Source: Pseudofabraea citricarpa
Lineage: Eukaryota; Ascomycota; Leotiomycetes; Helotiales; Dermateaceae
Assembly: GCA_029641185.1 (NCBI GenBank)
Contig: JAPWGK010000026.1
Coordinates: 62,001-126,000, forward strand
Length of the DNA: 64,000 nucleotides
Reading direction: 5' to 3'
Part shown: positions 4,500 through 60,256 of the stretch, piece by piece
Position numbering within the stretch: position 1 is the stretch's first letter
How the letters are laid out: each line of letters begins with the position of its first letter
Notes under the pieces: model-generated
The model's database searches: none
What the model saw: only the letters and a program-made list of their open reading frames with translations
Told to the model about the DNA's origin: nothing
Program-made: the position numbers and the translations under genes

Positions 4500-7006
4500 T
4501 CAGTCCGTGTCTCTGCTTCTCATTCCCGATCTCCTCGGTCTGTCTTCGCTGATAGCCCCAAAATCATCATTCCGGATACCTTCTTTCTTTGCTTTCTTGC
4601 TGGGGTCAAGGTTTTCAATCGATTTCAGATAGTCCTTGAATTGATGTGACATCTGAACAACTTGTTGGATATGATCCCGCTTGAGAACGACCTTCGTTTC
4701 TTCGTTTTCATTTGCCTCGTATTCTGCGAGAGCAACGGCAGTTTGAAGGGCGTTCCTAATTTCACGTCCATTCCACTTGACAGTTTTAATTTCACTACTC
4801 TCCATCGTATATGATCTCGCTGATTCAGCTACGCGAAGAGAGGGGTAGTCGCGCTCCAATACATCAAAGTTGTACTTCCATATCTGAGCTCGACTTTCGT
4901 CCGTGAGATTTGGAAATCGAAGGGCAACATGAAAACGGGATGCAAATCCTTCGTCCAGCGCGCCCACTCGATTGGTAGTTAGGAAGAGAATGCCTTTGTA
5001 AAATTCTAGAGCCTTCAAGAAAATCGAAACGAGACTGTTGTGCTGTAATTCAGCGAGTCCACGCTCACGCTGTTCCAAATAAATATCTGCCTCATCAAGT
5101 AGCATCACAGCACCCCAGGATTCGCCAAGTGAAAAGTATCTTTCTAGATTTCTATCAACCTCAGCAGGTTCCGTACCGATATCTGCGCATGTGATTGAAA
5201 GTAGAGGTCGACCAGTGATTTCAGCGACACATTCCGCAGTGCGAGATTTGCCAACTCCTGGGGAACCATGGAGCAAGATAATTTTGATCAGATCAGACGA
5301 CCAATTATCCTTTTCTGGTGAGTCGAGTCGAGCGGTGTAGCCCCAGGTTAAAGCCTTCAATAGATTTTTAGTTTCAATCGGTAAAACCAGATGGTCAAAT
5401 GCTTTTTTGTCAATCTTGACGTCAGTAATTCCTTCGATATCTATGATCTCCCATCTTCTGTCCTGTAGTAAGAAAGCGGGCACTCGGCGTGAGCATAAAA
5501 GGAAGAAATGGTCGTCTTCAATCGTGGTTTCTTTGGGGTCAACATCATCATAAGTGCTGAATTTGACTGGTTGCCGATGTCCCCCCTTTTCGGCCTCGTC
5601 TCTACAACTTTCACAAGCACAATCCATATCCTGAAGGCCCATACCTGGTTCGAAGAAAGTCGGCTCCGGGTCGTCGTTATGCTTATAGAAACTTTTGAAG
5701 TCGACCATGATACGTCCCTTGAAATGACGTTTTGGCCAAAGCAACGTCTGGCCGTTATATTCCTTCATAGCCGCTTGGTTTAAGCTCCAGAAGTTCTTGC
5801 CATGTTGAATGCACTTTTGCTCCAGTGTCATTCCATCTTGCTTATCCAGAACCTCTTTATGAAATCTTATTGGATATGCGGGCAACGAAGTAATCTCCTT
5901 CTCTCCGTTGAAAGGATCGTAATAGATGATAGGTATCCACTCCCTTCCATACCGTTCACCGTCGAAATTGATTCTCCAACAATCCATATTGTAACCGTTT
6001 GTAATACCATTGTTGTTAGAGAATGTGTTAATGTTTTGGATCACTGCCGGCCCCCATTCCCCATCGATCTTGGTAAACACAGTCTCACCTGGCTGAAGGA
6101 GCATCCAAAGATTCTCAAATGTTGCCATAGGTGTCTCTCTAGCATGCAAAGCTTCTTCTTTACTCAGCCTATCTCCGAGTTCGCCTTCAATAAACTCAAG
6201 AACAGTGTCGATGTGCTCGTTGCATTCTTCCTGGTATTTCTGATCATGCGAAGAAGGATGGCTTGACTTATACTGTTCCAGTGCTTTCCTGTTGTGTACC
6301 AACAGAGGATATGGCTCTCTCATACTTAAAGTCTCACTGGTAAGACTGATCGAAGGAGCATACCGAACAATTTTCCTTAGAGCATTGATCACATACGTTG
6401 AACGAATCTTCAAAGTTGTAGATTGTATATTGGTCAGGTCGTACTCATCGTCGGCCTGCCCTTGAATTTTGTTTCTCTCGTCTTTGCCCCGCCTGGGATT
6501 TCCATCCGAATCCGTTGGCCGCTTAAAAGTACTCTTGACGGTTTTGGTCACTTCAATCCAGGGTCTTCCATTCATCGGCTTCGAAGGAACCTCCAACGGA
6601 GTTGCCTTTGAGATTCTGTCTGTGACATTACCCTCGTAGTCAAGGTATTCGAGCTTGTATAAGACCTAGAAGGTGATCAGCACCCAATTAATAGATATGC
6701 AGATCAACCTTATTTAGATGTTTGATTCATAGCACGAACCTTGGCATCAAGTATTGTGTTATCCATAGTAGTTTCTATGGTCGGACGGTCTTCGATATCT
6801 GATTGCCCAGCTTCCGATGCTGGCCGATGGACCACGTCTTGGGTTGGACGTCGCATCGTTGAATCTATTCCGAGGTGATCCCGACCGTCAGGGCTGTTGT
6901 AATTTCTATGGTGCCCTGATGACTATAGTTTGTTAGTCTTCTACTGTGCAAAACCGGATGGATAAAAAACCTGGATTCCAGTTGTCGCAAGTGAAACTGC
7001 GGCCAT
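4500..7006 (-). CDS. AAA+ ATPase with DUF7025-like N-terminal region, module copy 1
   Basis: Predicted 794-residue cytosolic AAA+ ATPase of a large, uncharacterised fungal family. Exons are 7006-6971, 6922-6740 and 6665-4500. The start ATG at 7006 gives MAAVSLATTGIQ before a 48-bp intron with an unusual GTTTTT donor; the long third exon carries nearly all of the protein. Residues about 130-480 match my recollection of the DUF7025 region, including a CACESC pair of cysteines. The ATPase core has Walker A HGSPGVGKS (539-547), Walker B LLDEAD (595-600), sensor 1 LTTNR (about 635) and an arginine-finger-like SRF (about 650). A lid segment WNGREIRNALQTAVALAEYE follows, and the C-terminus is basic. 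All catalytic residues needed for ATP hydrolysis are present. It is head-to-head with a DUF7708-like gene across 706 bp, and the arrangement recurs at 14-20 kb. Substrate and pathway are unknown; a chaperone or remodelling role is inferred from the family only. Confidence 0.9.
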
Positions 7007-14484: not shown

Positions 14485-17172
14485 CTATTTTTGCATACGA
14501 AACGCATCATTGCGACGCTCGTCACGTATTGCTCTCATAGCCTCGTCCTCGTCATGATGAGTTGAGTCAATGTATTTCTTGAACAACGTGGACATCTTCA
14601 CAACTCTTCTCAAATGCTCCGGCTTGAGAACAACAATCTCTTGCCCTTCTTGTCTCGCTTCATCCTTAGCCAGTGCAACTGCAGTCTGGAAAGCGTTCCG
14701 AATCTCCCTGCCGTTCCATTGGCACGCCTTCATATCTGGGTCTGTCATCTGATAGTAATAAATGTCGATTTCTATCTTGATGTTTTCTTCCCTCTCTAGC
14801 CGTTTGAAATTCTTTTGCCATATTTTCGTGCGCTGTTCTTCGTGCAAGAGCTCATAGTGAAAGGATACGTTGATTCGGGACATGAAAGCGTCGTCAAAAG
14901 ACCCCACGCGGTTCGTCGTAAGAAAAAGGATACCGCGAAAGTATTCGAGAGTACGAAGGAATACTACACAGTATTATTAGTAACTAAATTTTATGAACAG
15001 CTAAAGAAAGTATGAAGAAAGAAATCGGAAGGGGATTGATATTTACCAGATACTAAGCTGTTCCTCTGTAAACTTTCTGAGGTCCTTTGTTCAAGGTAGA
15101 CATCTGCTTCGTCGAGAAGGACAACCGCACCCCAACGTTCACCTAACTCGAAAAATCTTTTGAAATTGCTTTCAACCTCGGCTGCATTAATGCCCATGTC
15201 TCCACAGGTCAAAGGAAGCAGGGGTCGTCTGATTAAGTCTGCAACGCATTCTACCTTCGGTCAGTGATAGTAGGATATAATATCACTAAAACTCACCGGC
15301 TGTACACCTAATACATTTTGGTCAGCCGTTGATATTCGAGAATTAGTAAACCTCTTTACTTACGTCTTCCCCACTCCGGGAGACCCGTGAAGGAGAAATA
15401 CAAGACCTTCTCCTTTATCCTTGATAAAGTCTGTGCTCCAGGTTTGGACTTGATCTCGAGATTCTGCATAATTTCGCACTAGAGAAGCAATTGTATTTTT
15501 TATATCTGGCTCGAGAACCAAGTTTTCGAATGGCTGTGGCTCAATTTTTGGATCGGTCAATTGATCAATGTGGAGACATTCTGTGAATACGTTCAGATCA
15601 ATCAAATCTCTAATAGTACCTTCATTGAAATCTTACCCCAACGCCTTTCGTTAAGCGCATAGGCTCGTAGATAACGATCACATAAAAAGTAGAAGTGATC
15701 TGGTTTTTCTTCGTCCATCTCTTCCGGAATTTTGTATTCATATTCAAGAAATTTCGGGCTATAGTCAAGATCTTCAAGCCGCTGTTGACATGACTTGCAG
15801 GCACATCCATCGGCAGGCAAATCATTCCAATTATCGGGGTCAATTTCCCGTGGGAAGGGAGGACGGTTAACTTTACATAATTTCTCATAGGAGAAGAAAT
15901 CAATCATAACCTTTCCATTCAACTTGAAGCCAAAATATGCAGAACGAATTAGCAGTCTATCGACAACTTGTGTATTAAATAATATGACATTTGAGTACTT
16001 ACCGCGATACTAGAAGACTGTTGTGAATTTGTGTTAATCGAAATCTCATTTATTTCGAACAGGAGGTTCTGGCGTATTGTTAAGCCACTGTGATCCTTGT
16101 ACGAGGGTTTGCAAAGGCTTAAATATTTCTTGCCTCTTTCAATCAAGCAAGATCCAACGATAGAATCTTCAGGGTGGAATCTCCTCGGGAACGCTGGAAG
16201 TAACATTATTTCTTTGGTGCCATCGAAGACCGGGATATGTATCATTGTTGGCTGTGGCCGGACAGCTCCTTGTACGAAGCCTACATTCCAACAGTATAGC
16301 CGATAAGAAACGGGCTTATTTTCACCTGTGAAACCACCACTGAACTCTCCTACCACAACTGGTTGATATTCTTTCCCGCTGTTGAGACGAACATACAAAT
16401 CTTCTCCTGGTTTGAAGAACAACCAAAGATACTCAAAAGATGCCACTGGCGTAGGTCGACGATGGCCTTCTAGTTCCAATTGTAGACGCTTGCCCAACGT
16501 GTCGTCCAAAAATCTTAGTAGCACATCAATATGCTCATTTGTGTTTTTTACATACTCTTCGTCGTGTCCGTCAGGTTGGTTGTCTTTGTAGGCCTTTATA
16601 TCTTCAAGGTAATGTATTAGAGGCTCGTAAGGGGCTTTTATAACAACAGGATTCTTCCGTAAATTGAGCGTGGGGTAGTATAGAATTACTTCTCTTAGAG
16701 CATTGATAAGATAGATGGAATGAATTTTCATAACGGTTTCCCTACCAATCATGATGTTTTGTTGATTGTGTAGACCTGAGCCAGCCAACTTTGTTCGACT
16801 AATTCTTGTCGTAAGAATTTCGAGCACGGTTTGGGTAGTTAGGCCAGCTGCGGTATCATCTGGAGTAAAATCGATTGGGTGGGTGGATTCCTTTTTGGCC
16901 AGAATCTCCCCGTCATCGTCCTTGTGAAGATATCGATACAAGATAGCAGCTGGAGATGATGAATTTTGAGTTTCAGTGCCAGCTATCGGACCAAGAGTAC
17001 GCTGGTCAATCTCCCCCGAACGCATTGCTTCTGTGTGATTGACGATATTATCTCCCTTGACTCTAGAAGTGCCACTTTCCACTAATGCTTGCAGACTATT
17101 TTCATGCTGCATACCTTGGATTGTAGGCTGGCATTTCATCAGAATATCCCCTCGATTGGAAGATGAAAACAT
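14485..17172 (-). CDS. AAA+ ATPase with DUF7025-like N-terminal region, module copy 2
   Basis: Predicted 788-residue paralogue of the ATPase at 4500-7006, alignable over nearly its whole length. Six exons close in frame: 17172-16003, 15922-15637, 15580-15364, 15307-15297, 15250-15047 and 14963-14485. The fourth exon is only 11 nt. The intron before it splits the Thr codon of Walker A HGSPGVGKT (550-558), and the exon restores KTCTAECVAD against KSRTAECVAE in the paralogue. Walker B LLDEAD (606-611), the TTNR sensor and the NGREIRNAFQTAVALAKDEA lid segment are intact. The region near 15636 first looks frameshifted, but a 56-bp intron ending in TTCACAG restores RRWECLHIDQLTD against RRWEIIDIEGITD, so I regard the gene as functional. 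It is head-to-head with another DUF7708-like gene. The end of exon 1, just before the intron at 15923-16002, is the least certain part. Confidence 0.87.
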
Positions 17173-58594: not shown

Positions 58595-60088
58595 TCTTAG
58601 GTATTTCACAATGAAAGACTTGAACATGTGGCCCTTCCAACAACTGCCAGCAGTCTATGACGATGTTTCGAGTGAAATTTCGAGATTAGGTCGAAGATGT
58701 TTACCAGAGAATCCTGGATTTGACATAACCTCTGCTTAGAAATGATACTGTCGGGAGGCGAGAGGCAATGCTAACATTGAGGTGAAGCAGCTATCTCGAC
58801 GAGCTTTAGTTAGAAGTAGGAATGAACCCAACGAGGCTCAGTTCACTCCACAGAGCTAGGAATCTTCCATGATCAAGTAGCCCTCCAGCATTGCATACGC
58901 TAAGATGACTGCCAGAATCAGATTGCACGCATGTCCATACAATACAAAAAGCCCATCCAATCTCCCCCACTCACTCCTCTATGCAACAAGCAATCCAACC
59001 ACCTGCAAAATCCGTATCACGCGCGAGACAGACAGGACGACTCGGTATTCCAGCCCGTGACAAACAAGCAAGCAAGCCTCCTCAGATGGCCAAACCCCAA
59101 AGAGAAAATCCCCCAAAATTCCCTTAATATTGTTCTCTCGTCTCTTTGAGTGACGAAATCGGACTCGTGAATCATGTTTGCTGCAACCTCATAGGCTCCT
59201 TCTTGCTTGATATTGTTCTCGCACCGTTGCCTGTTTGGGATGAGGCTTCTTTGATCGAGGGTAGGAGAGGAATATGGTGGAGCTGATGGGCTGTGTGTCG
59301 TGTGTTGTGTTGTGTGTTATGTTAGAAGAGGGTGGTGTGCTATACGCTCGCTAGCTTCGTGGATGGTTTGTATGTGATGTGTCGAATTGAAAATTCATCC
59401 GCATTAGCTCTCGTCTGAATGAAGAGAAAGCAAAGGCCTTGGATACCAGCCACTCATGGAACAGGCTCCTGGCAGTGCAGCTCACATCTAGAAGGCATAC
59501 AGACCATATCCTGCCATCGGCACCCTCAGTAAGCCACAAAGGCTCGTTAAGCAAATCGCAGCAACACGTCTCAGCAATCCAACAGCAGTCGAAGCGTCCC
59601 TCCCGAAAAAGCAGCAACCAAGAACAGCGAAGCCGACAAAAGGTGCGCAAAGAAAAAGCGAGAGGTTTGCAAGTCCTGCTCTCTACTCTATGAGGTGCGA
59701 GATGGGCTGCTCTGCATTCCTTTGATCTCTGATCTGGCCGTCATGCAGACACGCCTACGATTGTTCTCGAGAACAATATTAAGGGGGTTAAGCGAGGATG
59801 GAGGGCGCTGGCCATCTTTGAATCTGCTGCAGCAGAGAGACAATATGAAAGGCGAGAACAAACGTAAGGATAGCAGATAGCCTCTATGGATAGATGGTAA
59901 TATAAATATCCAGCATCCTTCTCTCTTCTTTTTCTTTTTTCCTTTCCCTCCTTACCTCAAAAGTCAAAACCCCAAATTCTCTCTCGTCATACTCTCACTA
60001 CACGATATAACACAGGCCCTCTCCAATACTCAACCCCTCACACACAGACGAAAACGAACAACCACACATACATCCACTCGCACAAGAA
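58595..60088. other. Intergenic, upstream of the GCTVM-repeat gene
   Basis: About 1.5 kb. No protein gene is supported; open frames at 58931-59880 lack features. The right end carries a TATA box and a pyrimidine-rich block typical of strongly expressed fungal genes. Confidence 0.55.
59901..59953 (+). promoter_or_regulatory. TATA box and CT-rich block before the GCTVM-repeat gene
   Basis: TATAAATA at 59901-59908 is followed within 12 bp by a nearly pure C/T run to about 59953. In filamentous fungi this pair often marks the transcription start of highly expressed genes. It would give a leader of roughly 130-150 nt before the ATG at 60089. Confidence 0.5.
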
Positions 60089-60256
60089 ATGCCCGCAAAG
60101 CGAACCCTTCACCAGAAAGCTGCCGGGGGACGTGGCTGCACTGTCATGAAGGCGGCTGGAGGACGAGGCTGCACGGTGATGAAAGCCGCCGGCGGTCGAG
60201 GATGTACGGTCATGAAGGCATCCGCATCCGCCAGCGATGGGAGAGGATGCACCTAG
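60089..60256 (+). CDS. Repetitive GCTVM peptide precursor, candidate a-/h-type pheromone precursor
   Basis: A 55-residue ORF: a 9-residue leader (MPAKRTLHQ), three identical 11-residue units KAAGGRGCTVM (residues 10-42), then a diverged unit of 13 residues, KASASASDGRGCT, ending at the stop. CTVM is a perfect CaaX prenylation box if exposed at a C-terminus, and GCTVM matches the core of the h-type pheromone motif (L/I)GC(T/S)VM described for Trichoderma reesei Hpp1. Classical ascomycete a-type precursors are similarly short, lack a signal peptide and end in CaaX. Here the boxes are internal, so cleavage after each Met would be needed; a KR pair sits at residues 4-5 only. The last unit stops at CT, lacking VM. 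The three DNA units differ at 7-8 of 10 synonymous codons and at no amino acid. A TATA box and CT block lie upstream. A mating role is inference; a RiPP-like precursor is the main alternative. Confidence 0.78.
   Translation: MPAKRTLHQKAAGGRGCTVMKAAGGRGCTVMKAAGGRGCTVMKASASASDGRGCT
60116..60214 (+). repeat. Three tandem 33-bp coding units
   Basis: Units at 60116-60148, 60149-60181 and 60182-60214 encode the same 11 residues. A fourth, partial unit (60215-60253) keeps only the ends of the peptide. Confidence 0.93.

Follow-up and report, generated by a model that had tools for sequence, protein, structure and literature searches.

The DNA analysed here, referred to as the window, is a stretch of 64,000 nucleotides (nt) from the helotialean fungus Pseudofabraea citricarpa (Leotiomycetes; contig JAPWGK010000026.1, positions 62,001 to 126,000). 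It contains a very small open reading frame (ORF), at 60089-60256, that very probably is a precursor gene of a-factor, the lipopeptide mating pheromone, built as a tandem array and either functional or functional until recently. The product begins with MPAKRTLHQ, continues with three copies of KAAGGRGCTVM and ends with KASASASDGRGCT and a stop codon; in each of the three copies, an AAGGRGC peptide precedes TVM. A first-pass annotation made from the letters of the DNA had described a tiny gene with tandem peptides, formed by three identical 11-residue units ending in GCTVM (located at 60116-60214) and with Arg rather than Leu or Ile before the Gly-Cys pair, and the translation agrees with this description. 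A fourth, partial unit had escaped notice. It retains G-R-G-C-T and then stops, and its Arg codon is AGA instead of the CGN found in units 1-3, a silent change.

The array was detected by Tandem Repeats Finder (TRF) as a 33-nt repeat, and the differences among its three complete units are confined to third codon positions, which hold all 10 variable sites and require at least 12 substitutions. In pairwise comparison all 22 codon differences between units are synonymous. When random substitutions were simulated, about 27-28% of them were synonymous, so that 12 silent changes out of 12 correspond to p ~2e-7. The frame has therefore been under selection at the protein level and is not a chance ORF. 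The genome was represented by one assembly of one strain (44 Mb in 43 contigs). The pattern GGNTGYACNGTNATG had 11 matches in it versus 5 for the reversed control (counts of pattern matches, here and below, may be lower bounds), and three of the 11 are the units themselves. A genome search with the whole ORF returned itself and one further match, which has E=0.28 and falls in a frame of no relation, and the gene is thus single copy. No Pfam family matched the protein, and visual inspection shows no signal peptide in the N-terminus MPAKRTLHQKAAGG; a-factors are without one.

The TATA box and pyrimidine-rich block that had been claimed for the promoter are both in place (Table 1); together with the lack of an intervening ATG they fit a short transcribed gene. 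Further upstream, and all within 1 kb 5' of the ORF, are the copies of a 14-bp element. The exact sequence CTTAATATTGTTCT occurs at four places in the 44-Mb genome, compared with none for the reversed control and 0.54-0.73 expected under Markov models of order 2-4. Two of these places are upstream of the ORF, one is 564 bp 5' of the STE2 ATG, and one is about 180 bp 5' of the ATG of a STE6-like transporter gene. With 0.7 taken as the genome-wide expectation, one CTTAATATTGTTCT would fall within 600 bp 5' of any particular gene with a probability of about 1e-5, and its presence at two mating genes by chance is not credible, even allowing for the choice of genes and for AT-rich promoters. In each of the three cases (ORF, STE2 and STE6-like gene), as judged from open frames and not from gene models, the upstream neighbour points its 3' end at the element, so that the element would serve the gene named here.

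A scoring matrix was built from the element sites at the ORF, and 18 unselected loci, with a maximum score of 14.5 bits, served as background. The STE2 locus scored 18.1 and 15.7 bits and the STE6-like locus 20.4 bits; scores at the STE3 locus (1.4 kb of upstream sequence covered) and at the MATalpha locus were at most 10.6 and 12.6 bits, respectively, which is within the unselected range. The relaxed pattern CTTRATATTGTTCTC, allowed up to one mismatch, was found at 21 genome places versus 9 for its reversed control; three are at the ORF (and define the motif), one is at STE2 and one at the STE6-like gene. Small CaaX ORFs were sought at 18 loci (the 16 other element matches, STE2 and the STE6 region), and among the 13 ORFs recovered there was no convincing tandem CTVM-like pair.

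Table 1. Features of the window at and around the candidate pheromone precursor gene
Feature	Position	Strand	Basis
Candidate a-factor pheromone precursor ORF, tandem CaaX, 55 amino acids	60089..60256	+	translation, silent unit differences, single copy in genome
Unit 1, KAAGGRGCTVM	60116..60148	+	TRF array, unit alignment
Unit 2, KAAGGRGCTVM	60149..60181	+	TRF array, unit alignment
Unit 3, KAAGGRGCTVM	60182..60214	+	TRF array, unit alignment
Degenerate unit 4, KASASASDGRGCT + stop, no VM, no terminal CaaX	60215..60256	+	unit alignment
TATA box at 59901; C/T-rich tract, 78% C+T, at 59920-60000	59901..60000	+	no ATG from TATA box to ORF start
Element copy 1, exact CTTAATATTGTTCT	59123..59136	+	
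Element copy 2, CTTGATATTGTTCTC	59206..59220	+	
Element copy 3, weaker, CCTACGATTGTTCTCG	59754..59769	+	
Element copy 4, exact CTTAATATTGTTCT	59770..59783	-	
Palindrome ATTGTTCTCGAGAACAAT from two element cores	59760..59777	.	sole genome place at up to one mismatch
Element copy 5, weaker, CTTACGTTTGTTCTCG	59853..59868	-	
Cyanate lyase open frame, sole cyanate lyase match in genome	53783..54262	-	PF02560, 103.5 bits; cyanate hydratases in PDB

The genome contains a single match to STE3, and its single STE2 gene was matched in two pieces. The STE2 pieces (L012/L013, G000 C1:1247164-1248061), the first of which has one in-frame TGA, are probably separated by an intron near the 3' end. The nearest relatives of the STE3 protein are from Coleophoma cylindrospora (65% identity across the whole query) and from Phlyctema vagabunda (72% across 58% of the query); organism names accompany 9 of its 11 matches, and we take all nine to be Leotiomycetes. 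The STE6-like frames (L048, 1984-6541) carry ABC membrane and ATPase domains, and their best match is the "ABC a-pheromone efflux pump" of P. vagabunda at 77% identity. Other matches are named "related to STE6 full-size ABC transporter responsible for export of the a factor" and "ABC a-pheromone efflux pump AtrD"; these names are annotators' labels and come from the best 120 of 5838 matches. The putative assignment to STE6 rests on such close fungal matches. The STE3 and STE6-like matches place the host among the helotialean Leotiomycetes, close to Phlyctema.

The mating-type (MAT) locus (L049/L050, G000 C39:67000-86800) has an HMG-box ORF (PF00505, partial match, 26.5 bits with a cut-off of 25.4) and a partial MATalpha ORF (PF04769, partial match, 41 bits), between flanking frames that, named from sequence, we take to be APN2-like and SLA2-like. 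The two at one locus suggest, and do not prove, a homothallic arrangement. An alpha-factor gene was sought in the genome with the pattern TGGTGYN9GGNCARNNNTGY, which covers Trp-initial repeats only; there were 2 matches versus 1 in the control, neither in a repeat protein.

Another line of evidence is positional. The only match to cyanate lyase found in the genome is 5.8 kb from the ORF, and at least two other ORF regions separate the two. The a-factor genes of Neurospora crassa, M. grisea, F. graminearum and others adjoin cyanate lyase, with EBP2 and a MYND gene nearby (PMC3068285). The element held in common with STE2 and the STE6-like gene, the cyanate lyase linkage and the helotialean host together make the ORF at 60089-60256 the best a-factor candidate. 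They also give substance to the earlier suggestion of a lipid-modified, multi-copy pheromone, in a host that has STE2, STE3 and STE6-like genes. As for the suggestion of a new pheromone subtype, tandem CaaX units in themselves are already known in Ceratocystidaceae, Fusarium, Trichoderma and Rhodosporidium (PMC3068285, PMC10182648, PMC13037118).

The core a-specific genes of yeast are a-factor, STE2 and STE6; their regulation in Candida involves an HMG protein together with Mcm1. We propose that the candidate a-factor gene, STE2 and the STE6-like gene form an a-specific set carrying CTTAATATTGTTCT in common. The ATTGTT core of the element presumably fits HMG-box proteins and would suit a factor such as MAT1-2-1, and CTTAATATTG conforms to the C(A/T)8G pattern of MADS sites. 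FPR1, an HMG regulator of Podospora, activates PRE2 and the gene for the a-type (lipophilic) pheromone, and, with weaker significance, the STE6 ortholog (PMC3125171).

Two further matches of the element are at protease loci. The first, exact to CTTRATATTGTTCTC, is in a locus with a serine carboxypeptidase S28 frame (PF05577; L030/L051, G000 C34:1361980), and the second, with one mismatch, is in a locus with a protease-like frame that we read as a sedolisin (L045/L053, G000 C34:50281). A protease that degrades pheromone would fit naturally among a-specific genes, and the element at these loci may be there by chance.

In the mechanism that we envisage, the gene would be transcribed and the precursor, which would have no signal peptide, synthesised in the cytosol; cleavage at the one Lys that separates neighbouring units would release the copies; each exposed CTVM end would be farnesylated, trimmed to Cys and methylated; and the product would be several copies of approximately AAGGRGC(farnesyl)-OMe (or the same with KAAGGRGC), exported by STE6 and detected by STE3 of the partner. 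With no CaaX box at the end of the protein, cleavage must precede prenylation if the gene works as it stands. That the internal CaaX boxes alone are used is conceivable, and we hold it with some doubt. Equally tentative is the combined proposal of an a-factor precursor lacking a C-terminal CaaX box, whose internal boxes are exposed by a cytosolic protease before farnesylation, under an undescribed a-specific element, in which a MADS-like C(A/T)8G site and an HMG core overlap, common to STE2 and STE6.

Several observations weigh against identifying the ORF as an a-factor gene. The end of the protein reads GRGCT followed by the stop and has neither a CaaX nor a CpaX box. A terminal CaaX box is present in every a-factor of the Ceratocystidaceae survey, as far as its text was available, and served there as a criterion (PMC10182648, PMC13037118); it is likewise required of h-type precursors (PMC3068285) and of the Leotiomycete candidates (PMC10569646). 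The N-terminus is, by eye, polar and basic, neither hydrophobic nor rich in Ser/Thr, and the protein has no GY motif. None of 478 word-sharing candidates from a database of 5.8 billion proteins was a homolog at E<=10; small genes often go unannotated, and this null result is therefore not proof of absence in relatives. The near matches of the element include 16, out of the 21, that are away from the ORF, STE2 and STE6-like loci. Several of the exporter matches bear general names (bile salt export pump, MDR/TAP protein 1), and among PDB entries the exporter scores higher with mammalian ABCB1 (459 bits) than with yeast Ste6 (7qkr, 388 bits). Neither EBP2 nor a MYND gene was found among the frames scanned with Pfam or with a crude MYND pattern, and synteny with the a-factor locus of Sordariomycetes is partial. 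Finally, the genome has another small frame with a CTVM end, which is taken up below.

The missing terminal box can also be read as damage: the gene would then be a tandem a-factor gene that once functioned, recently lost its terminal CaaX box and is now crippled, perhaps through self-fertility. This is quite possible, if short of probable; it agrees with the functional interpretation on what the gene is and departs from it on whether the gene still works, so that the two assessments overlap and do not add up. Unit 4 keeps GRGCT, with the stop exactly where VM would come, and in unisexual Huntiella species one of the a-factor genes lacks its terminal CpaX because of a stop codon (PMC10182648). 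The MAT locus combines an HMG-box ORF with a partial match to MATalpha, as might be seen in a homothallic species; the MATalpha match is only partial, however, and homothallism is thus not established. Against decay are the absence of any nonsynonymous change in the three units, the several intact promoter elements and the lack of a frameshift. The GRGCT end may also reflect a strain-specific stop or an assembly error. Splicing was considered as a means of restoring the box and rejected: 106 GT-AG introns of 35-400 nt could start from a donor within the ORF, and none of them yields a CaaX-like end; nor is there a GT between unit 3 and the stop codon.

A second alternative, which we consider unlikely, is that the true a-factor is encoded by a conventional single-copy gene elsewhere, a homolog of B. 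cinerea BCIN_13g03330 or the frame at locus L021, and that the ORF in the window makes a second, accessory lipopeptide with a different role. At least 111 of 124 Leotiomycete genomes are reported to have a putative a-factor, in most cases with a CTVM ending (PMC10569646). In the present genome, a search limited to the CTVM ending gave 9 CTVM-stop sites versus 7 in the control, with one plausible small ORF among them. This is L021 (G000 C23:1587488-1587502, minus strand), a Cys/Ser-rich frame of 60 amino acids from the first Met that begins with MCSSSS and ends with PCTVM and that has no Pfam family at E<=1; it is another small CaaX protein and possibly a conventional Leotiomycete a-factor candidate. 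However, the 3-kb L021 locus lacks the element common to the ORF, STE2 and the STE6-like gene (best score 10.5 bits), a genome search for GY-C-x-x-M-stop gave no match, and the 2023 survey, which called its own candidate the first outside Sordariomycetes, doubts in its available text that this candidate has a role in mating (PMC10569646).

It is far less probable that the ORF encodes a CaaX repeat peptide that is not a pheromone, or an ordinary small protein with incidental CTVM repeats that are never prenylated: the lack of a terminal CaaX box, of a recognised homolog and of a Pfam match would all suit such a protein, but the rare element common to two a-specific genes and the cyanate lyase linkage would then be coincidence. 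The idea that the array is non-coding, or belongs to a transposon that has inverted repeats of 17 nt at its ends, is largely refuted and has a negligible chance of being right, for although the array is short and a 17-nt perfect inverted repeat, CCCTTAATATTGTTCTC, is present upstream (59121-59137 and 59769-59785, 631 nt between the arms), the unit differences are all synonymous and the only two further exact genome copies of the repeat core are in mating-gene promoters, unlike a mobile family. The site in the STE6-like promoter has the first 16 bases of this 17-nt repeat.

Taken as an a-factor gene, the ORF resembles the tandem a-factors of Huntiella and other Ceratocystidaceae, which encode 1-5 copies of a 7-10-residue peptide, each with its own CpaX box (PMC10182648, PMC13037118): both have a short precursor in which every repeated peptide is followed by a CaaX box; those precursors lack a signal peptide, and none is seen by eye here. 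It differs from those precursors, which are from Sordariomycetes, always have a terminal CaaX/CpaX box and a hydrophobic N-terminus, and carry other peptide sequences. Like HPP1 of Trichoderma reesei, it encodes a very small protein with three GC(T/S)VM boxes; HPP1, however, has Leu or Ile ahead of GC, two sites for Kex2 and one copy right at the C-terminus, as against Arg, a single Lys and no terminal box here (PMC3068285). The protein falls outside the definition of the h-type precursors with which the first-pass annotation compared it, in view of the Arg before GC and the absent terminal CaaX; that class was found only in Hypocreales in the 2010 study (PMC3068285). HPP1 is needed for male fertility, its Kex2 sites are dispensable according to Schmoll and colleagues, and the same authors raised a rhodotorucine-like route, with the enzymes unknown (PMC3068285).

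The BCIN_13g03330 family is of the same class, Leotiomycetes, with proteins of 45-64 amino acids (55 here) and CTVM as its commonest box; its terminal CaaX, Ser/Thr-rich N-terminus and GY (in 87 species) are all lacking in the present ORF, and the available text makes no mention of internal repeats in the family (PMC10569646). Linkage to cyanate lyase is shared with the Neurospora mfa-1 and Sordariomycete a-factor locus, which differs in having a single terminal CaaX and nearby EBP2 and MYND genes, the latter two not found here (PMC3068285). In the literature consulted, partial and without supplements, we met no tandem CaaX pheromone from Leotiomycetes, no precursor without a terminal CaaX that was presented as functional, and no promoter element of this kind. 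In the rhodotorucine A precursors of Rhodosporidium toruloides, a basidiomycete whose peptide is different, a single Lys precedes each copy.

Outside the Sordariomycetes, the a-factors of filamentous ascomycetes have proved very elusive. Should the element be conserved in relatives, it would offer a route to a-specific genes, among them a-factor, that is independent of pheromone sequence, and its presence on STE2 and STE6, if true, would extend the yeast a-specific gene circuit to Leotiomycetes. A tandem precursor without a terminal CaaX box would make the processing of internal CaaX boxes directly testable, a question shared with HPP1, Huntiella and rhodotorucine A.

Elsewhere in the window, DUF7025 was found in two frames, both on the minus strand, at 4500-6575 (with an AAA ATPase and a fungal lid domain) and at 15949-17172 (without them), a duplicated and perhaps broken family.
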